Below, in pieces: positions 5,497 through 14,848 of a stretch of 64,000 nt of DNA. The stretch lies in assembly GCF_003612555.1 (NCBI RefSeq), contig NZ_RAZF01000007.1:62001-126000 (forward strand), written 5' to 3'. Both the position numbers and the translations under genes were made by a program. Every line of letters starts with the position of its first letter. The first letter of the stretch is position 1. The stretch is from Acutalibacter sp. 1XD8-33. Lineage in GTDB: Bacteria > Bacillota > Clostridia > Oscillospirales > Acutalibacteraceae. Under the pieces are notes generated by a model that was not told the DNA's origin, made no database searches, and saw only the letters and a list, made by a program, of their open reading frames with translations.

Positions 5497-5502
5497 GCAA
5501 AC

Positions 5503-5533
5503 GTACCCGGAAGGCGCCGAATCTTCCGGGTAC
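5503..5533. terminator. Hairpin after ABC exporter genes
   Basis: Perfect 11-bp inverted repeat GTACCCGGAAG / CTTCCGGGTAC with a 9-nt loop, directly after the exporter stop codon. The T-tract behind it is weak, so termination is inferred. It separates the exporter from the convergent restriction operon. Nothing further was seen in 5534-5668. Confidence 0.55.
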
Positions 5534-5668
5534 TGCTATTGAAACCGGTTTGATGCAGGAGAGACTTGCGTTCATAGCCGAAAAGAAACGGCTTAGACCC
5601 TGTTTGCGGGTTATAGAAGATGCCTGCATTACAAATTCTTCTGTGCCGAAGTATGCGAGTACGGCTAT

Positions 5669-7462
5669 TTATTGCAGCTCTGGCAGGCCAAGTTCTTTTA
5701 AAAACTGATTGTGCTTTTTTTTTGCGTCGATAATGTCCTGCTCAATATGGTCCAGGTCCTTTTTTACCTCGGTCAGGTCAATAGGTTCCTCCTCTTCAGC
5801 CGTGTTTACATAATGGGAGATATTCAGGTTAAAACGGTGCCCGCTGATTTCCTTCATGGAAACCCGGCGGGAGTACCTGCTATCTTCCTCTTTCCGGAAC
5901 TGATAGGTTTCAACAATTCGGTCGATATGCTCCGGCAGGAGGACGTTTTGGCGCTTTCCCTTCTCATAATGCTTGCTTGCGTTGATAAATAGCACGTCAT
6001 CGAATTTTCTGCGCTTTTTAAGCACAAGAATGCAGACGGGTATTCCGGTGGAAAAGAATAGATTGGCCGGCAGGCCTATAACCGCGTCAATGCTGCCATC
6101 CTTCAGCAGCTTTGTCCGGATTCGTTCTTCCACACCGCCGCGAAAGAGAACGCCGTGGGGCAGAATGATTGCCATCGTTCCATCGTCGCTTAAAAAGTGG
6201 AAGCCGTGCAGCAAAAAAGCAAAGTCAGCCGCTGACTTTGGAGCAAGCCCGTAGCTCTTAAAGCGGAAGTCCTCCGCCAGAGTGTCGTCAGGGCTCCAAC
6301 GATAGCTAAATGGAGGATTGGCCACAACCGCGTCGCATTTTAGCTTTTTGGCTGGGTTCATCTCGCTGAGGATGGGCCAGTCATTGGTCAGGGAGTCTCC
6401 GTGGAAAATCTGAAATTCGGAATCTTTAAAGCCGTGCAGCAGCATGTTCATACGGGCTAGGTTATACGTTGTAATGTTTTTTTCCTGCCCATAGATTTGC
6501 CCGATACGATTAGGGCCAAGCTGCTTTTGAACGTTGATGAGGAGCGAGCCCGACCCGCAGGCAAAATCCAAGAGATTGCGGATAAAGGTCTTTTTGCCGT
6601 TTTGGGGATCTTGGCTGTCCAGAATGACAATGCGGGAAAGAATGGTGGAGATTTGCTGGGGCGTATAGAATTCCCCAGCTTTTTTGCCAGAGCCGGCGGC
6701 AAACTGTCCAATTAAATATTCATACGCGTCTCCCAAGAGGTCGGTTTCATTTGTAAATCCGGCGAGCCCTTCGGCAATTTGCGTTATGATGGAGCACAGC
6801 ATTCCATTGCGCGCCTCATAATTCCTCCCGAGCTTTTCAGAATCCAGATTCACCTCCGAGAACAGACCGCGAAAGGTGCTGTCAAAAGATTCGTTTTCGA
6901 TAAATTTAAAGCCCCTTTGCAGGATATTTAAGAGCTGGTTGCTTTGCGTTCTGGCCAGTTCATATATAGTGCTCCACAAATAGTAAGGCTGTATGACAAA
7001 ATGGACCTTCCGGCGCATTTGCTTTTCAAACTCGGTTATCTGGTCCAAATTTCTGATATACCAAACTCCCAGCGGGGTCAGTTTGCCGCTCTCAAGCAGG
7101 ACTTCATAGTCGTCAATCCGCGCTTGCCGCGCTTGTTGAATGGCTGTTTTGTCGGTTTCGTTTTCTTTTACTGGCAGCTTTTCTACCGGCAATGATTCAA
7201 AATAGTCTATTACCCGCCGCTTCAATTCGGCTATGATTTCATTCCGGGTTTCGTCATTAGCAGCCACAATTTCCTTTTCACAGATGGCATAGTCCTTTCC
7301 AAGCTCCTTTTGGGCGGCTGTTTCATAATTGTCGGAGAGATAGCGCAGAAAAAGAAACGACAGCATGTAATCCCGAAAGTCGTCCGCGTTCATCGCTCCC
7401 CGGAGCTTGTCGGCAATGCCCCAAAGAGTTTTTCCCAGTTCTTTTTGATTTGCGTCGTTCAT
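5669..7462 (-). CDS. hsdM: Type I restriction-modification DNA methyltransferase subunit
   Basis: HsdM, the N6-adenine methyltransferase subunit of a type I restriction enzyme. It methylates the bipartite site chosen by HsdS and forms the M2S core. About 597 aa. The helical N-terminal HsdM domain (QKELGKTLWGIADKLRG onward) is followed by the SAM-binding motif DFACGSGSLL (about residue 300) and the catalytic NPPF motif (VVANPPFSY, about 385). The ATG at 7462 has AGAGG upstream; an in-frame GTG at 7471 is an alternative. It is the last gene of the operon and lies 11 bp after the prrC-like gene. Confidence 0.95.
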   Translation of the reverse strand: MNDANQKELGKTLWGIADKLRGAMNADDFRDYMLSFLFLRYLSDNYETAAQKELGKDYAICEKEIVAANDETRNEIIAELKRRVIDYFESLPVEKLPVKENETDKTAIQQARQARIDDYEVLLESGKLTPLGVWYIRNLDQITEFEKQMRRKVHFVIQPYYLWSTIYELARTQSNQLLNILQRGFKFIENESFDSTFRGLFSEVNLDSEKLGRNYEARNGMLCSIITQIAEGLAGFTNETDLLGDAYEYLIGQFAAGSGKKAGEFYTPQQISTILSRIVILDSQDPQNGKKTFIRNLLDFACGSGSLLINVQKQLGPNRIGQIYGQEKNITTYNLARMNMLLHGFKDSEFQIFHGDSLTNDWPILSEMNPAKKLKCDAVVANPPFSYRWSPDDTLAEDFRFKSYGLAPKSAADFAFLLHGFHFLSDDGTMAIILPHGVLFRGGVEERIRTKLLKDGSIDAVIGLPANLFFSTGIPVCILVLKKRRKFDDVLFINASKHYEKGKRQNVLLPEHIDRIVETYQFRKEEDSRYSRRVSMKEISGHRFNLNISHYVNTAEEEEPIDLTEVKKDLDHIEQDIIDAKKKHNQFLKELGLPELQ

Positions 7463-7473
7463 GGCGGGCACCT

Positions 7474-8595
7474 CTATTCCTCTGTAAACAAGTCGTCGTT
7501 AAATTTGTAAGTTTCCAAAAATCCAGCCAGCGCCTTTCTGAACAGAGCCTTATTATCGGCCACCATTTCAATAGGCTGAAATACGGAATGATTGCCATGG
7601 CTTAACAGATTGATGATCCGTGCGTAGATTATGCCGTCTAAATCGTCCTCTTCCCACTTTATACATGCTGAAAAATGATTAAATCCATGAAAAGCGGCGG
7701 TTTTTTCCAGGACATTTCTCAAAATATTAAAATGATAGGTGTAAATTTTCCCGCTGTCCGCAGCCCTCTTTAATTCTTTTATCAAAGCGATATGATGGAA
7801 GAAGGGGGTATCCCCTGTATTTTTCACAATATATTTTCCTGTTTCTTTGTTAAAACTTAGGAACCGGCTTGCCGTGCTCTCTTTTTTCAGTTCATTATGC
7901 ATCACATTAAAAAATAACGCGTGATGGGTGGAGATGACCGTTTTAGTCCGGCAGTCCTTAAGCAGTTCCGCCAGCTGGCACGCCATCGCGACGACATTGT
8001 TGTCATCAAGCGAGGAGACCGGATCATCTATGTAGATATACTTAACCCAGTCGTAGGACAGGGATTCCAGCTTTACCAGCTGTATAATGGCAAGAAAAAA
8101 GCACCAGATAAACATGTTTTCTTCGCCGCGGGAGATCTTGATCCCACTGACGGTTTCTAGCCCCTCCCTGGTTCTCACTTCCCGTGAAAAGTTGACATAT
8201 CCCTCGTCATAATTGATGGTAAAATCAAAGTCGACATGGACCCGCAAAAATTCCCGGATATGAGTGTCCATCTCAAGATCCCTCAGCCCGTCGAAGAAGC
8301 GGGAGTCCGTGTTGAAAAGCAGGCGCCTGTCCGTGTCCTCATACAAATCATTGTACCAGGTAAAAAGATCCTCGGTAAAGGCGTTGTAATATAGGGTGTC
8401 CCGGGTTGTTTCTTTGCTTCCGGAAACTTTCTTCTTGCCCAAATCCTTAAATTCCCCTGAAAGTCTGGTTTTTCCGGTCCCGTTATAAGCAAAAAGGAGG
8501 AAGTAATTTTTTGTGTCGGGTGTATCCGACGTGCCAAGGCTATCCCGGATATTTTTTGCCAGGCCTTTCAGGCTTGCAAACTGTTTTGTGCTCAT
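7474..8595 (-). CDS. prrC: PrrC-type anticodon nuclease (tRNA-targeting phage-defence guard)
   Basis: A 373-aa protein with the architecture of E. coli PrrC (396 aa), the anticodon nuclease held silent by a type I restriction complex and released when a phage inhibits that complex; it cleaves tRNA-Lys. The N-terminal ABC-type ATPase has Walker A AYNGTGKT (36-43), the PrrC-like stretch LYYNAFTEDLFTW (68-80), signature SRGEE (155-159), Walker B YIYIDDPVSSLDDNN (186-200) and STHH. The C-terminal HEPN-like part keeps the nuclease triad as Arg293 and Glu297 (LRNVLEK) and His333 (RIINLLSHG). GAGGAGG precedes the ATG. It sits between hsdS and hsdM, where it can be co-made with its restrainers. The tRNA target is inferred from the family. 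Confidence 0.92.
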   Translation of the reverse strand: MSTKQFASLKGLAKNIRDSLGTSDTPDTKNYFLLFAYNGTGKTRLSGEFKDLGKKKVSGSKETTRDTLYYNAFTEDLFTWYNDLYEDTDRRLLFNTDSRFFDGLRDLEMDTHIREFLRVHVDFDFTINYDEGYVNFSREVRTREGLETVSGIKISRGEENMFIWCFFLAIIQLVKLESLSYDWVKYIYIDDPVSSLDDNNVVAMACQLAELLKDCRTKTVISTHHALFFNVMHNELKKESTASRFLSFNKETGKYIVKNTGDTPFFHHIALIKELKRAADSGKIYTYHFNILRNVLEKTAAFHGFNHFSACIKWEEDDLDGIIYARIINLLSHGNHSVFQPIEMVADNKALFRKALAGFLETYKFNDDLFTEE

Positions 8596-8600
8596 TATAT

Positions 8601-9785
8601 TTACCTCCTCAATAGAGGAAAAAGCCCTTGCACCAGGCCCCTTTTATGATTTCGCAAGGCTTGCGTTTTTTGAGCCTGCGCGGTGATCCATTCATCAAGA
8701 GTAGAAAAACAGGCGGCGATTTTTTGCTGTTCGCCGCTCTCTATATTGGGAAACAGGACCAGTGTTTCTTTTAATTCAGAAAAATGCCTTTTGTAGCTAT
8801 CAGACTTTATCGGATGAAAAGAGAGATAATGAAATAGAAATTCTACGCTGATTCTTTTTTTCGCTGACAAAATTTTTATTCCATCGGCGCCTTGAGCAAA
8901 AGGCCTGTCAATCAGCTTTATAATACAGGTGTGATCCCCGAAAATCAATAATTTTTGTTCGAATTTTACTACGGCGCCGGCATCATTCGTCCATCCGCAA
9001 ATCAAATCCTGCCCTTGATCTATAATTGGGAATTTGCCGTTGGCCTGGTATTCAGAAGAGGGGATTTTTTTTGGCGGTGTAATGACGGAGACCAGCTTTG
9101 ATACATAAGCCGTTTCCCACTCCCCACAATCGCGGAACTCCGGAAATCTCCACTCTGGAATGGTTTTGCCCGCAGCAGGGAAGAGCTTCTGCATCAAGCC
9201 TTTTTTGTAGTCCTTCAGCGTGGATAGCTTCTTATCCTCCGCAGCAATCCATTTATCAAGGAAAGAGAGGCAGTCGGCGACTTTTTGTTGCTCCTTTTTA
9301 TCGGGTCTGGGCAGCAATATCGTGGAAAACTGACGATAGCTGACCATTTTGCCATCTCGTATTCCCTCAAGGTCTTTTTTTAAATCCTGGATAAATCTAT
9401 AAGACTTGAAATAATATTTGTAATATCTCTCTTCAATATCGACCCTTTTTCGCAGAATGATATAGGCGGGACTGCAAATGCCGTGATATACGGAATATTC
9501 AATGCCGCCCTGGAACGACCTTAGGGAAATTATAAAATCGCCTTTTTCCACCACTTTATAGCTTTCCAGGCTTTTGGCAGAAACGGAAACGGTATAATCA
9601 ATCTTATCTCTTGGAATTGCGCCATATTCTTGAGAAATAGCGAGGATCGGTAAATCAGCGCGATGATTTCGATTGTTGACCTGCTTAAAAAGCAAGTTTG
9701 CGTTTTCAAAAAGAGGAGGGCCGTTTTCCACAAACTCCGAAAATCTATATTTCAGGTGGAACGCTATCTTTTCTTTTTTACTCAT
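8601..9785 (-). CDS. hsdS: Type I restriction-modification specificity subunit
   Basis: HsdS, which chooses the bipartite DNA target for both methylation and restriction. 394 aa with two target-recognition domains, each followed by a conserved coiled-coil spacer. The repeated spacers read EQQKVADCLSFLDKWIAAE (about 165-205) and EQQKIAACFSTLDEWITAQ (about 350-390), each ending in GLMQKLFP or GLVQGLFP. Start overlaps the hsdR stop by 8 bases (ATGAGTAA), indicating translational coupling. The two recognition domains differ, as expected for a two-part target; the target itself cannot be predicted by eye. Confidence 0.95.
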   Translation of the reverse strand: MSKKEKIAFHLKYRFSEFVENGPPLFENANLLFKQVNNRNHRADLPILAISQEYGAIPRDKIDYTVSVSAKSLESYKVVEKGDFIISLRSFQGGIEYSVYHGICSPAYIILRKRVDIEERYYKYYFKSYRFIQDLKKDLEGIRDGKMVSYRQFSTILLPRPDKKEQQKVADCLSFLDKWIAAEDKKLSTLKDYKKGLMQKLFPAAGKTIPEWRFPEFRDCGEWETAYVSKLVSVITPPKKIPSSEYQANGKFPIIDQGQDLICGWTNDAGAVVKFEQKLLIFGDHTCIIKLIDRPFAQGADGIKILSAKKRISVEFLFHYLSFHPIKSDSYKRHFSELKETLVLFPNIESGEQQKIAACFSTLDEWITAQAQKTQALRNHKRGLVQGLFPLLRR

Positions 9786-12700
9786 ACGCTTTTAGCCCCA
9801 CAATCTCCTGGCCACCGGCCAACTTTTTCAGCAGTGGAATTAAGTCATCCATCAGATCCAATTCCTTTTTGATTCTATCGCGCCAACTAAGATCAAGGGG
9901 CTCCAATAAGTCGCTTAGCTTTTCGCCGTCAAAAATCTTTCTTTCCATAATGCCGTTGACAAAGGTTTGCAAAGAATCCGCCTCAAGACCGTATTTCTGG
10001 GAAAGCGCCCCAAGTTCATCTACTGATTTTTTAGCTTTGAACTTATGATAGCCGTCCATAACTTCTTGTTCTGTAAGGCCCTGATGGTTCTCAAAAGTTT
10101 TGATATATCTGTCGAGTTCCTCGATATACGCTTCAATGTCCTTCCGCTCTTCCATCAAATTAGAGGTAGAAGCAATGAGATCCACCAATTCCTTTTTTGT
10201 CATCTTTTCTTTTTGAGAAACATTGGGCTGGGTGTATCGAGAAAGAAGCGCCATGATGTAGTCATAATCAATAATGGCCGAAGAAAACAGAACAAACTCA
10301 AAATCAAGCCGCGCTGCTTCTGGCTCTTGATCTGGAAGCCCCTTGCCCTGCTGCTCTTTTAGTCTTTCGGCGGTTTCAAGATAGGCTCCTCGGAACGCCC
10401 GCAAGGTGTCCTCAGGCAGCAGCCCGGCAATGATGCCCGCCTGCTCTTTGCCTATTTCCGTATATTGGTCCAGTTGGGTTTTTAACCGCTGCACTTCTTT
10501 AAATTCATCAATGAATTCCGCACGGGCGGCATCCCCCTTCAGATTGCTCACTTCCTCCGGCCTATAGGCAAGGCCCTGGGATTTCATAAACCGTTTAAGC
10601 GCTGTAACGGCTTTTTCCAGCCTTTCAACCACAACCGGGGCCGGATCCACAAGCCAGATTTCTTTGACCCTTTCCGCGTTTTCCCTGCCGGAAAACAGCT
10701 TGATGGCGTCATCGACTTCCGCTTCCAGACCTCTAAAGTCGATGATATTCCCATATGGCTTTGTGGGATTCAGCACACGATTGGTCCTGGAGAAGGCTTG
10801 GATTAGGCCGTGCTGCTTGAGGTTTTTATCCACATACAATGTGTTTAAATATTTGGAGTCAAATCCGGTCAGCAGCATGTCGACCACAATGACGATGTCG
10901 ATCTTGTTTTCATGGGGATAATCCCCATTGCCGTATTGCTGATCCTTAATGCGTTTCTGCACATCCTGATAGTACAGGTCAAACTCGTTTATGCTGTGGT
11001 TTGTTCCATATTTTCCGTTGTAATCTGCAATAATCCTTCTCAGCGCCGCTTTTTTCTTGTCGGGATTTTCCCGATTGTCAGCTTTTTCCTGCTCAAGATC
11101 CTCTTGCAGCTGTTTCACGTCCTTATTCCCCTCCGCCGGTGGAGAAAAAACGCAGGCAACGTTAAGGGGAGTAAAGTTTTCGCGGTCCCGCGCGAATCTT
11201 TTTTGCAGCGCTTGAAACAGGTCAAAGTATTCAATTGCCCCGTTGATAGAAGCTGTAGCGAAAATCGCGTTATAGCGGCGGCCAAAGGTCAGGGCGTCGT
11301 GTTTTGAAAGGATGGCTTCCACAATTTTCGTTTTGCTGATTGCGGAGCCGGCCTTCGCCGCTTTTTTCCAGTCGTTAGGCTTAAAATAGTCGATGTGGAA
11401 ACGCAGCACGTTGCCATCGTCAATGGCGTTGGTAATCGTGTAGGTATGCAGCTCCTGCTGGAACACGTCCTTGGTTGTTCTGTAAGAGCCGATGGTGCCG
11501 TCTATTTTTTTGTAGGTGGAATTTTCGTCAAAGATTGGGGTTCCAGTAAAACCAAAAAGCTGTGCTTTTGGGAAGAAGCTCTTAATCGCGTCGTGGTTTT
11601 CCCCAAATTGGGAACGATGGCATTCGTCAAAAATGATGACGATGCGCTTGTTCTGGAGCTTGGCCAGTCTTTCTTTAAATGTGGGCTGGCCCTTCCTTTT
11701 TTTCTCCTGGTTTTTTTTGCTGCTCTCATCCAGGGCCAACCCCAGCTTCTGAATGGTAGTCACGATCACTTTATCCTTATAGTCGTCGGAGGTGAGACGC
11801 CTGACCAGGCTTTCGGTGTTGGTATTCTCCTCCACGCAGCCCTCCTGAAATTTGTTGAATTCCAAACGGGTCTGCCGGTCCAGATCTTTCCGGTCCACAA
11901 CAAAGAGACATTTTTCGATTTCCGGATTATCCTTCAAAAGCGTAGATGCTTTAAAGGATGTAAGGGTCTTTCCGCTCCCGGTGGTATGCCAGATATACCC
12001 GTTTCCTCTATTTTCATCGATACAGTCCAGGATTGCTTTCACAGCATAAATCTGATAGGGGCGCATAATGATCAATTTCTGTTCACTGGCCATCAGCACG
12101 ATGTACCGGCTGATCAATTCTCCCAGGGCGAATTTTGGTAAAAAGCTTGCGGTGAATTCATAGAGATTGGATATCTTTCTGTTTTCCCTGTCGGCAAACT
12201 CATAGACAGGCAAGAACCTCTCATCTGCGTGAAAGCAAAAATGCTCTGTATGATTATTTGCAAAATAGTAGGTCTTGGTTTCGTTGCTTACAATAAAGAG
12301 CTGCATAAAGCACAACAAAGAATTTGTATAGCCGTTTCCAGGGTCGTTTTTGTAATGGACAATTTGCTCCATGGCTTTTTTAGGGGAGATCTGTAATGTT
12401 TTCAGCTCAATCTGGACAACCGGGATGCCGTTGATTAGGAGAATGACATCATAGCGGTGGCTGCTGTGGTCTGTGTTAATCCGTAACTGATTGACTACCT
12501 CAAATTCGTTTTTGCACCAATCCCGCAAATTTAGAAGGGTGTATTGCAGGGGGGTGTCGTCGTCACGTTTGAAGGTGTTCACTTCCCGCAGAGCTTTGGC
12601 GGCGGCAAACACGCCGGAGGTTATGATGCTGTCCCGCAGCCGCGTGAACTCGGAATCGCTCAGGTTAACACGATTGGATCTTTCAAAATGCGCTCTGAAA

Positions 12701-12804
12701 TTCGCTTCCAGGGAAGCCTTATCTTTAATATCTTCCCGATATTTATACTTCAAGTTCCGCAGGCTATTAATAAAATTTATCTCAATTTCCCGTTCGGATC
12801 TCAT
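9778..12804 (-). CDS. hsdR: Type I restriction endonuclease/translocase subunit
   Basis: HsdR, the motor and nuclease subunit, which translocates and cuts unmodified DNA. 1008 aa, normal for the family. The N-terminal PD-(D/E)xK nuclease is seen in RYDVILLINGIPVVQIELKT (about residue 118-137). Superfamily 2 helicase motifs follow: Walker A TTGSGKT (about 275) and the DEAD-box variant DECHRSQFGE (about 395), then GFTGTP. GGAGG precedes the ATG at 12804. It is the first gene of the hsdR-hsdS-prrC-hsdM operon. The locus is more AT-rich than the ABC and sugar genes around it, which suggests acquisition. Confidence 0.96.
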   Translation of the reverse strand: MRSEREIEINFINSLRNLKYKYREDIKDKASLEANFRAHFERSNRVNLSDSEFTRLRDSIITSGVFAAAKALREVNTFKRDDDTPLQYTLLNLRDWCKNEFEVVNQLRINTDHSSHRYDVILLINGIPVVQIELKTLQISPKKAMEQIVHYKNDPGNGYTNSLLCFMQLFIVSNETKTYYFANNHTEHFCFHADERFLPVYEFADRENRKISNLYEFTASFLPKFALGELISRYIVLMASEQKLIIMRPYQIYAVKAILDCIDENRGNGYIWHTTGSGKTLTSFKASTLLKDNPEIEKCLFVVDRKDLDRQTRLEFNKFQEGCVEENTNTESLVRRLTSDDYKDKVIVTTIQKLGLALDESSKKNQEKKRKGQPTFKERLAKLQNKRIVIIFDECHRSQFGENHDAIKSFFPKAQLFGFTGTPIFDENSTYKKIDGTIGSYRTTKDVFQQELHTYTITNAIDDGNVLRFHIDYFKPNDWKKAAKAGSAISKTKIVEAILSKHDALTFGRRYNAIFATASINGAIEYFDLFQALQKRFARDRENFTPLNVACVFSPPAEGNKDVKQLQEDLEQEKADNRENPDKKKAALRRIIADYNGKYGTNHSINEFDLYYQDVQKRIKDQQYGNGDYPHENKIDIVIVVDMLLTGFDSKYLNTLYVDKNLKQHGLIQAFSRTNRVLNPTKPYGNIIDFRGLEAEVDDAIKLFSGRENAERVKEIWLVDPAPVVVERLEKAVTALKRFMKSQGLAYRPEEVSNLKGDAARAEFIDEFKEVQRLKTQLDQYTEIGKEQAGIIAGLLPEDTLRAFRGAYLETAERLKEQQGKGLPDQEPEAARLDFEFVLFSSAIIDYDYIMALLSRYTQPNVSQKEKMTKKELVDLIASTSNLMEERKDIEAYIEELDRYIKTFENHQGLTEQEVMDGYHKFKAKKSVDELGALSQKYGLEADSLQTFVNGIMERKIFDGEKLSDLLEPLDLSWRDRIKKELDLMDDLIPLLKKLAGGQEIVGLKAYE

Positions 12805-12914
12805 GGCGGGAGTCCTCCTTTCCTGGCGAAATAGCGGTTATCACGAAAGACGGCTTGCCTTTTTGCCGCACATAAAGCATATCCGGCCCAGCACACTTCA
12901 GACATACAACCGCA

Positions 12915-12963
12915 GGGCCTTTCTATCCTCTATGGTTACATCTCGTCGGGAACGGAAAGGCCC
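12915..12963. other. Hairpin between LTA-synthase-like gene and hsdR
   Basis: GGGCCTTTC and GAAAGGCCC pair perfectly across a 31-nt loop, directly downstream of the gene at 12971 on the minus strand. There is no T-tract, so it may be a weak terminator or a processing site. Confidence 0.35.
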
Positions 12964-12970
12964 CGGCGCA

Positions 12971-14848
12971 TTATTGCCCATACAAGAACGCGTGGCGCAT
13001 ATAGTATTCCACCTGCTGAAATTCTAAAATCCGTTCCGCTGTCTCTCCTTCCGGTTCTGGCAGATAGCTGCCCTCTGCCGTTACGCAGGTCCCATTGGGC
13101 TGAATCACCGGCAGGTCCGCCATCAGCTCGTCTGTATACTGCATATAGGCGGGCCCGTCCCAGCCGCACAGCTGGAACACCTGGTTCATAAGGAAGCACG
13201 GGGAAATGTCTGGCCCCTCTCCGGCAAAATCATTGCCTAAGATCTTCTTAGCCGCGTCATTAGCCCAGATCAGGTAGCGGGTAGAGTAGTAGTTCAGAAA
13301 GCCCTCCTTGTGGTCCTGGCCCAGGTCAATCCCCATCTCCTGGTAGGCGCTGTTTCCGTCTCCCATCCAGGGGTTATGGTCCCCAAATACCACGATCACC
13401 ACCGGCCGGTCCAGTTCCCGGTAAGAGTCTACAAACGCTGCCAGCTCCTCGCTGGTGGACTTCACTGAGCCCAGATAGTTGTTCACAATGTTCTCCGTCT
13501 CCTGGCTATATTTTCCGGGCTGGATGAAGTCCTGGCCCCAGTCGTTCACGCCGGTATTATAGGGGCCATGGCCCTGGTAGGTGACGGAAAAGGAGAAATA
13601 GGGGGCTTGGGATGCCTCCACAGCCTCCTGGTGCAGGCGGAACATCTCCGGGAACAAAATCTTGTCCCGGGCAATATTGCCCCCGGCCAGCTCCCCGTAA
13701 TGTTCCTCAAAAAACAGGTAGTCATCCAGACCCAGGTTGGGGTTGATGTTGACCCGGTTATAGAACCAGTTGTAGCAAGGGTGGCTTCCTGTGGCGGCAT
13801 ACCCTTGGCTCTTAAAGTACCAGGGATAGGAATTGGTGGCCCGGCGGAAGCTGCTAAGAGTCTCGTACCCCGTCAAAAAGGATCGCTCGGTTTTCACTGT
13901 GCCCGCCGCAAACACACTGGTAACCAAGTTACCGGTGAAACTTTCTGCTTCCAAAGCGTGATAGGAGGCATAGAGATCCTGGACAAAGGGGATTTCTTCA
14001 AATTTAGAGAGATCGTTATACGCCTCCAGCATAACGGAAACCATGTCTACCCGTTTTTCCTTTGGAATTTCCCGGTCCTCATACTTTGCCAGCAGGGCTT
14101 GGGCCGCTTCCTTATGATAGCCTTCGGGAGGCGTTTCGAAGGCACTCTTCACGCTATATAAAAAAGGATAGACAAACCCCTTGGACGTATAAACGTCTGT
14201 AGCGGACCACCGGTTGGCGTGGTCGAAATTGGCGGTATGGGTGGAGTAGACCCGATTGTCCCCGTATACCTTAGACAAGGGAAATACTGCGGCCAGCAAA
14301 ACCGCCGCCAAGGCAAACCGGAGCCAGCCCGCCCGAAAGCTGGCTTGGAGGTTCTTAAAAAACACCGGCCGAAACCTTCCCCGCCCGCAGAAGAAGATCA
14401 CCACGCCCCAGCCCACAATACAGGCCAACGCCGCCGCCAGCATCGGGGTCATAAACAGGCTGTAGCGCCCCAGCATATTCCCGGCCTCTTTTGCCAAAAG
14501 CAGGTCCTCGAACATGAGGGGGTCGTTGCGGAATTGCAGCTTGAACCAGTTGGCCAGGGCCAATCCAAACACGCCCGCCCCCGTGATTCCGTAGGCGATC
14601 ACGGCACGGTTGGTGAGAAACCACAGAAAGAAGCACAAAAGGACCGGCGGCAGCAGGTTCAGAGTCATGAGCAGAGGACGCTTCAGATAGCTCTGCAGCA
14701 TTAGGGCACGGTTGGCTGTCACGGAGAAGCATAAGGTCAGCAGGCCCACGCCCAGGGCTCCTGCCAGAAGCAGCAGGGCGGTGAACCATTTCTTTTGAAA
14801 CAGGGCGGCAAGTTTGGCCCGCAGCCCCGGATTTTCTCTTTCTTCCAA
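12971..14848 (-). CDS. LTA synthase-like membrane phosphoglycerol transferase
   Basis: A 625-aa protein with about five N-terminal transmembrane segments (residues 15-205) and an extracellular alkaline-phosphatase/sulfatase-fold domain, the layout of LtaS and related phosphoglycerol transferases that decorate or polymerise teichoic acid or membrane glycans. The likely nucleophile threonine is in AAGTVKTERSF (about 318), and metal-binding motifs appear as FGDHNPWMG (about 495) and YQGHGPY (about 430). The start is inferred as TTG at 14848, preceded by GAGGGA. A different polymer substrate is possible because the family is broad. Confidence 0.85.
   Translation of the reverse strand: MEERENPGLRAKLAALFQKKWFTALLLLAGALGVGLLTLCFSVTANRALMLQSYLKRPLLMTLNLLPPVLLCFFLWFLTNRAVIAYGITGAGVFGLALANWFKLQFRNDPLMFEDLLLAKEAGNMLGRYSLFMTPMLAAALACIVGWGVVIFFCGRGRFRPVFFKNLQASFRAGWLRFALAAVLLAAVFPLSKVYGDNRVYSTHTANFDHANRWSATDVYTSKGFVYPFLYSVKSAFETPPEGYHKEAAQALLAKYEDREIPKEKRVDMVSVMLEAYNDLSKFEEIPFVQDLYASYHALEAESFTGNLVTSVFAAGTVKTERSFLTGYETLSSFRRATNSYPWYFKSQGYAATGSHPCYNWFYNRVNINPNLGLDDYLFFEEHYGELAGGNIARDKILFPEMFRLHQEAVEASQAPYFSFSVTYQGHGPYNTGVNDWGQDFIQPGKYSQETENIVNNYLGSVKSTSEELAAFVDSYRELDRPVVIVVFGDHNPWMGDGNSAYQEMGIDLGQDHKEGFLNYYSTRYLIWANDAAKKILGNDFAGEGPDISPCFLMNQVFQLCGWDGPAYMQYTDELMADLPVIQPNGTCVTAEGSYLPEPEGETAERILEFQQVEYYMRHAFLYGQ

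Follow-up and report, generated by a model that had tools for sequence, protein, structure and literature searches.

A probable PrrC-type guard within a type I restriction-modification operon of Acutalibacter sp. 1XD8-33

Does the putative ATPase gene between hsdS and hsdM on an Acutalibacter sp. 1XD8-33 contig encode an anticodon nuclease of the PrrC type, and would that nuclease guard the restriction-modification (R-M) enzyme encoded around it? We analysed a 64,000-nucleotide stretch of DNA from this genome, hereafter the window, and conclude that the locus is very probably a type I R-M operon that encodes its own PrrC-type guard. HsdR, HsdS, and HsdM would carry out DNA restriction and modification, and PrrC, encoded right after HsdS, would be kept silent by the assembled R-M enzyme. 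The features of the operon are as follows.

5501–13000, no strand: low-GC stretch coinciding with the operon, approximately 43–49% GC against mostly 53–64% in the flanks (composition profile)
5669–7471, reverse strand: hsdM, methyltransferase subunit (Pfam N6_Mtase, E 1.4e-100; FACGSG and NPPF motifs)
7474–8595, reverse strand: prrC, 373 aa, putative latent anticodon nuclease (PADLOC PrrC, Pfam AAA_13, E. coli PrrC alignment, AlphaFold model)
7477–7812, reverse strand: C-terminal putative HEPN-like anticodon-nuclease domain, residues 262–373 (alignments; separate model, pLDDT 84.8)
7813–8595, reverse strand: NTPase head, residues 1–261 (alignment; Rad50/SMC heads as top structural matches)
8601–9785, reverse strand: hsdS, 394 aa, specificity subunit (Pfam Methylase_S; PADLOC Specificity_I, E 2.7e-94)
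8604–8610, reverse strand: Shine-Dalgarno-like GAGGAGG for prrC, within the end of hsdS (read directly; 8 nt upstream of the ATG)
9778–12804, reverse strand: hsdR, 1008 aa, restriction/translocation subunit (Pfam EcoR124_C and HSDR_N; PADLOC REase_I, E 0)

All four genes are open and contain the expected domains or motifs. The initial annotation was right to link the gene to an R-M operon, to place it between hsdS and hsdM, and to give the order as hsdR-hsdS-prrC-hsdM. The open prrC frame begins with an ATG 5 nt after the end of hsdS, and hsdR, which overlaps hsdS by 8 nt, contains GSGKT, DECH, and TGTP motifs. The EcoR124_C domain of HsdR is an observation that bears on type IC membership of the linked system. 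The hsdM frame is listed from a GTG at 7471; a GAGG sequence lies 9–12 nt upstream of an ATG at 7462, which appears to be the likelier start. Window HsdM is 600 aa long and that of the E. coli locus 518 aa, and many HsdM relatives align in one piece only from residue 112–125 onward. This suggests that an insert particular to the lineage or to a clade lies at about residues 60–115. Because the GC content of the operon is well under that of its flanks, the sequence also suggests that this island was horizontally acquired. In 25 of 29 same-genus genomes, own included, DNA matching one flanking gene over nearly its full length is present; some match occurs in all 29, but ABC-transporter paralogues abound. 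The protein on the other flank is matched in 4 of the 29, own included (E 1e-100). A megablast search of plasmids found no close DNA copy of the window operon, and promoter and terminator scans of the sequence came out near shuffle expectation.

The PADLOC PrrC model (E 1.3e-127), alignment with E. coli PrrC, a protein tree, and a structural model all agree that the gene encodes a PrrC, as the initial annotation had proposed. The same PADLOC model also matches E. coli PrrC, the same-genus PrrC of the prototype lineage, and a Klebsiella quasipneumoniae relative. In Pfam, AAA_13 alone is above the cut-off (E 3.1e-17), and NCBIfam gave nothing above its cut-offs for window PrrC. The expectation that such a protein would be annotated only as an AAA ATPase describes most annotated relatives among those listed, but some records read "anticodon nuclease" and PADLOC names PrrC. 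As the prototype reference we used an E. coli plasmid protein of 396 aa (L056), with Asp, Arg, Glu, and His at positions 287, 320, 324, and 356, the last three being the published catalytic triad R320/E324/H356 in the accessible text of PMC2610378. Window PrrC is 33.7% identical to this protein over 371 columns, and its R293, E297, and H333 align with the triad, so that the Arg-x3-Glu...His residues and their numbers were correctly called from the beginning, as were the ATPase motifs. The latter comprise a Walker A motif (A36YNGTGKT43), an ABC signature (S155RGE158), a Walker B/D-loop (D190DPVSSLD197), and a switch His (H224). A block at residues ~69–83 (YNAFTEDLF.W.ND) is common to window and E. 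coli PrrC and is the likeliest candidate for the 15-residue "PrrC box" of the N domain. All 37 aligned relatives keep the triad unchanged, as do all 59 proteins of a wider alignment, and triad substitutions abolish the activity of E. coli PrrC, according to the accessible text of PMC3014915. Sequences related to window PrrC were also sought in phages. A tblastn search of 50,697 phage records with window PrrC gave no match at 1e-5, and one PHROG family, phrog_23661, matches it (E 3.4e-59).

An AlphaFold2 model of the whole protein, made from 37 sequences, has a pLDDT of 85.3 and a pTM of 0.79. Residues 5–264 match a Rad50 head with a Z of up to 13.2 (rmsd 3.5 across 217 residues), and the predicted head is of the Rad50/SMC type. 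Septu PtuA and retron-associated ATPases, which are among the Foldseek matches, have similar SMC/Rad50-like heads. They differ in working with a separate HNH-type partner nuclease in place of a fused HEPN domain. A separate prediction of residues 262–373 is mostly helical (pLDDT 84.8). Foldseek gave no match for this domain at E 0.001 or below, the best being AbiV at E 0.74. No VIA row is strong by itself (Z 7.3 at most), and the best, Csm6', is tied with an unrelated ESCRT protein. The first 12 rows nonetheless comprise nine HEPN proteins (AbiV three times, Csm6' twice, 4nqf, 8yuf, 1wol, and 1ufb) and three others (the ESCRT protein, CheA, and a designed bundle). HEPN is in the title of five rows, two of them AbiV; 9bj7 is also AbiV, and Csm6' (two rows) and 1ufb we take to be HEPN proteins. 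Sequence searches of the PDB brought up nothing relevant, whether with the protein by itself (E up to 1), a whole-protein profile (E up to 0.01), or a C-domain profile (E up to 10). The structural matches are consistent with assignment of the C-terminal domain to HEPN, short of proof. Structure prediction had been proposed as the check on a HEPN-like fold around the triad; a helical domain with HEPN proteins among its nearest matches was obtained, but the match is weak. PrrC has been assigned to HEPN in the literature (PMC3710099, accessible text).

The initial annotation contrasted the order of the window operon with the prototype hsdM-hsdS-prrC-hsdR, which is indeed the order described in the part of PMC3014915 accessible to us. 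We therefore compared operon order among PrrC loci from a genome-contig scan (38 loci) and a plasmid search (113 records). A class-wide profile search found PrrC in 6 of 391 genomes, own included. Sixty-three loci were examined for a full prrC frame, and the broken L013, L064, L045, and L069 were left out of the tree, unmended; L013 and L045, which belong to the 38, were likewise left out of the 37-relative alignment for their broken frames. Among the 59 intact PrrC proteins, the next hsd gene after prrC is hsdM in 47 and hsdR in 12, the latter including E. coli, in a sample that is biased in that window PrrC was the query behind the 38 loci and most of the plasmid loci, and the plasmid loci were picked by hand. 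The full order R-S-prrC-M is present in 42 of the 47 and M-S-prrC-R in 11 of the 12; in the rest a gene went undetected on the stretch covered. On the 59-protein tree the order label changes once, at a branch with 100/100 support, and once in all 200 bootstrap trees (shuffled labels, mean 11.2 changes), though the program warned of the long branches that join the two groups. The PrrC systems in this sample are two lineages of opposite operon order. The R-S-prrC-M lineage is found in many phyla, so the order of the window does differ from the prototype but is usual in its own lineage. We had also considered a rearrangement specific to this locus, which the tree rules out, order being a lineage trait.

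HsdM splits along the same line as the prrC gene order. Window HsdM scores 664–1052 bits within its own lineage (cut genes left out) against 293–333 in the other, the E. coli locus giving 305, and window HsdR scores 412 bits against the E. coli locus and ~1235–1800 within its own lineage (621 for L019, which is partial). E. coli HsdM and HsdR thus belong to the other lineage. Both lineages occur in the window's genus, where genome G008 carries the prototype type (L063, hsdS-prrC-hsdR). No hsdM was detected at L063 within the 16 kb taken. Classical PrrC work concerns one of the two lineages. The open-licence PMC literature, a search that leaves the key PrrC family papers outside, yielded no statement of the order split or of the pairing frequencies given below, and we make no claim that these are absent from print.

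Most loci of both orders share the position of prrC relative to hsdS. Using start codons chosen by script, we determined that in 49 of 59 loci (39/47 with hsdM next, 10/12 with hsdR next) prrC begins no more than 8 nt before and 6 nt after the last base of hsdS; the hsdS-prrC junction is therefore retained by both orders in most loci. The other ten include two without a detected hsdS, one contig-end artefact, three gaps of 13–176 nt, and four gaps of 0.7–3.9 kb (L015, L016, L021, and L067). The gaps of L015, L016, and L021 measure 1.3–3.9 kb. Retention of prrC right after hsdS in two lineages long separated and opposite in order may point to HsdS, or to co-translational assembly with HsdS, as the conserved coupling point.

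The pairing of HsdM with PrrC was assessed independently of the PrrC query, by a plasmid search with window HsdM (E up to 1e-100). Forty-three plasmid records contain a window-like HsdM at 59% identity or more, 42 of them at 60% or more; other listed rows are at ~40% identity, and 314 further records are all below 60%. Thirty-eight of the 43 records, which were not deduplicated, are also in the plasmid PrrC list, and in these the HsdM and PrrC coordinates lie side by side, within ~1.6 kb, one pair across the record start. The five exceptions are all Arsenophonus nasoniae plasmids. In the two that we examined (L103 and L104), no prrC remnant was detected between hsdS and hsdM. The same R-S-M operon is present on both, with 48 nt at the prrC site (8814–8863 in each), a natural prrC-less version. 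Of 398 same-phylum genomes, two in addition to that of the window encode a close HsdM, and prrC is just upstream in both. Conversely, E. coli-type HsdM at 60% identity or more is present in 1088 plasmid records (not deduplicated, mostly enterobacterial), of which at most 74 have PrrC beside it (the 113 PrrC records minus 39 listed as window lineage). That close relatives of window HsdM are nearly always beside PrrC, and those of E. coli HsdM seldom, is the result we least expected. It is conceivable, though we hold this only tentatively, that R-S-prrC-M is an R-M family dedicated to its anticodon nuclease, with PrrC as a near-obligatory fourth subunit, HsdS as the coupling point, and an enzyme whose retention may owe as much to sensing for PrrC and silencing it as to DNA restriction, PrrC being an optional extra in the E. 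coli lineage. If so, the window lineage would be the better place to study how an R-M enzyme silences a tRNA nuclease. As for PrrC-less ancestors, eight non-self HsdM matches in 291 genomes are distant (342–364 bits) and uninformative on the lineage, and a search for PrrC in the short loci that surround these matches found none.

How would such a nuclease act? The E. coli enzyme lies dormant and cleaves the lysine tRNA of its own cell once a virus has put restriction out of action. E. coli PrrC is held latent by EcoprrI, is activated by T4 Stp together with GTP hydrolysis and unmodified target DNA, and cuts tRNA-Lys, as described in the accessible text of PMC3014915. Window PrrC and the E. coli PrrC/EcoprrI system, a type IC R-M system, share the ABC NTPase head, the R-E-H triad, the length, and the position of prrC right after hsdS in a type I operon; they differ in sequence, as noted above, and in order, M-S-prrC-R there and R-S-prrC-M in the window. 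Another counterpart is PrrC170 of Klebsiella quasipneumoniae, which was cloned as HsdR, HsdS, PrrC, and HsdM from 300 nt before HsdR and is 35% identical to EcoPrrC. It gives protection from T1 and T7, its overexpression halts growth, and its target is tRNA-Lys; phage tRNA-Lys rescues phage from it (PMC11555353, accessible text for all of these). The gene set and the HsdR-first cloning fit the window lineage, with the difference that PrrC170 has been tested by experiment and the window is known from its sequence. We compared PrrC170 by its description, with a K. quasipneumoniae plasmid PrrC (L075) as stand-in. The latter is 54.4% identical to window PrrC and 32.3% to E. coli PrrC, and it has the same flanking genes as the window plus two extra genes between hsdR and hsdS. 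PrrC170 is probably of the same lineage as window PrrC. The two extra genes are found in two Klebsiella loci of the window lineage (L047, 2931–6718; L075, 2955–6742) and encode a TrlF-family ATPase and an RNA-binding-domain protein.

In the host, a pattern search detected tRNA-Lys genes for both the UUU and the CUU anticodon, beside which others may exist. From the data on PrrC170 and E. coli PrrC, the fit of the gene set, and these host tRNA-Lys genes, we infer the same guard mechanism for the window: silencing by the R-M enzyme, the trigger, and the tRNA-Lys target would, by analogy, be those of E. coli PrrC and PrrC170. Given that its order is typical of the lineage and that an operon with this gene set has already been put to experiment elsewhere, the locus is not novel in kind. 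Judged from its sequence, the window operon is a well-preserved further example of a known PrrC guard type, a clean, open one from a host of the class Clostridia. The initial annotation had assigned the DNA to a "gut Clostridium"; the host is better described as a member of the class Clostridia and, by genome kinship, of the same genus as Neglectibacter sp. X58, which NCBI places in Oscillospiraceae.

The nuclease could guard the R-M enzyme in this way without being specific to tRNA-Lys, its target being a different tRNA or more than one, which we consider unlikely. The anticodon-contact segment of E. coli PrrC has diverged in the window lineage, reading SYHL in the prototype lineage and FHHV/I in that of the window, and since this segment differs between lineages, tRNA-Lys is here the presumptive target of window PrrC. 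The equivalent of E. coli D287 is Asp in 27 of 37 relatives and Ala, Glu, or Lys in the other 10, and the accessible text of PMC3014915 warns that PrrC substrates may vary. Window PrrC itself, however, retains this residue as D262, and PrrC170, with the same gene set and probably of the same lineage, targets tRNA-Lys (PMC11555353, accessible text). L075, the plasmid PrrC of K. quasipneumoniae whose flanking genes are also the same, stands close to that of the window, and tRNA-Lys thus remains the target we favor.

Also doubtful, and in our judgement quite improbable, is that the nuclease mainly answers host stress, such as a change in the dTTP pool or the loss of an R-M subunit, and makes the operon an addiction module rather than an anti-phage guard. 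Latent E. coli PrrC is activated by dTTP even when Stp is absent, and a function of PrrC unrelated to phage has been proposed (PMC3014915, accessible text for both). An island that looks acquired would fit such a module, and so would the near-constant presence of PrrC beside window-type HsdM on plasmids, which is expected if loss of the R-M system is costly. Yet the PrrC170 operon, with the same gene set, gives phage protection in the accessible text of PMC11555353. The toxin can also be dropped, because prrC is split beside a strong hsdM match in L013/L064 and L045 and the Arsenophonus operon lacks it. An anti-phage guard remains the preferred reading of the window locus.

That prrC is a decaying, inactive passenger is very improbable. 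Broken frames do occur in 4 of the 63 recovered loci (L013 being the same as L064), one in the window's genus, but window prrC is open with all motifs present, and two pairs of prrC relatives are under strong purifying selection (pairwise dN/dS ~0.044 for L009-L011 and ~0.054 for L009-L012). Between window prrC and L008, dS is saturated and pN is 0.075. The L009 copy, from Streptococcus orisratti, and the L011 copy, from a 6.3-kb contig of a Clostridia MAG, are close (dS 0.33), which points to prrC transfer between classes if the L011 contig is rightly binned.

RloC resembles window PrrC in its ABC head and Arg-x3-Glu...His RNase domain and differs in its zinc-hook coiled coil, a length about twice as great, its rare linkage to R-M genes, and its excision of the wobble base (PMC2610378, accessible text). 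Although the broad family AAA_13 alone passes the Pfam cut-off, an RloC-type or generic AAA_13 ATPase is scarcely credible for a protein whose 373 residues are inside the range for PrrC (341–416 aa) and outside that for RloC (658–897 aa; PMC2610378, accessible text), which has no CxxC and no zinc-hook insert, and which scores 423.9 bits with the PADLOC PrrC model against 55.7 for the next.

Several relatives of the locus are broken or otherwise unusual. In a Neglectibacter sp. X58 contig, from the window's genus, prrC is split over two frames with a strong hsdM match alongside (L013, 8001–9112, the same as L064); this close relative has therefore lost the nuclease, or the contig is misassembled at that point. 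The split prrC of L045 likewise adjoins a strong hsdM match. In L069, from genome G102, a broken prrC lies upstream of hsdM and hsdS near a contig end, and this is the sole locus of the 63 with hsdS detected downstream, and not upstream, of prrC. In Salinivibrio a small winged-helix gene is situated between prrC and hsdR (L060, 8144–8344). Near the prrC operon, Zymomonas carries the antiviral reverse transcriptase Drt3b (L058, 1–1746) and Prosthecochloris a diversity-generating retroelement (L046, 15244–16616).
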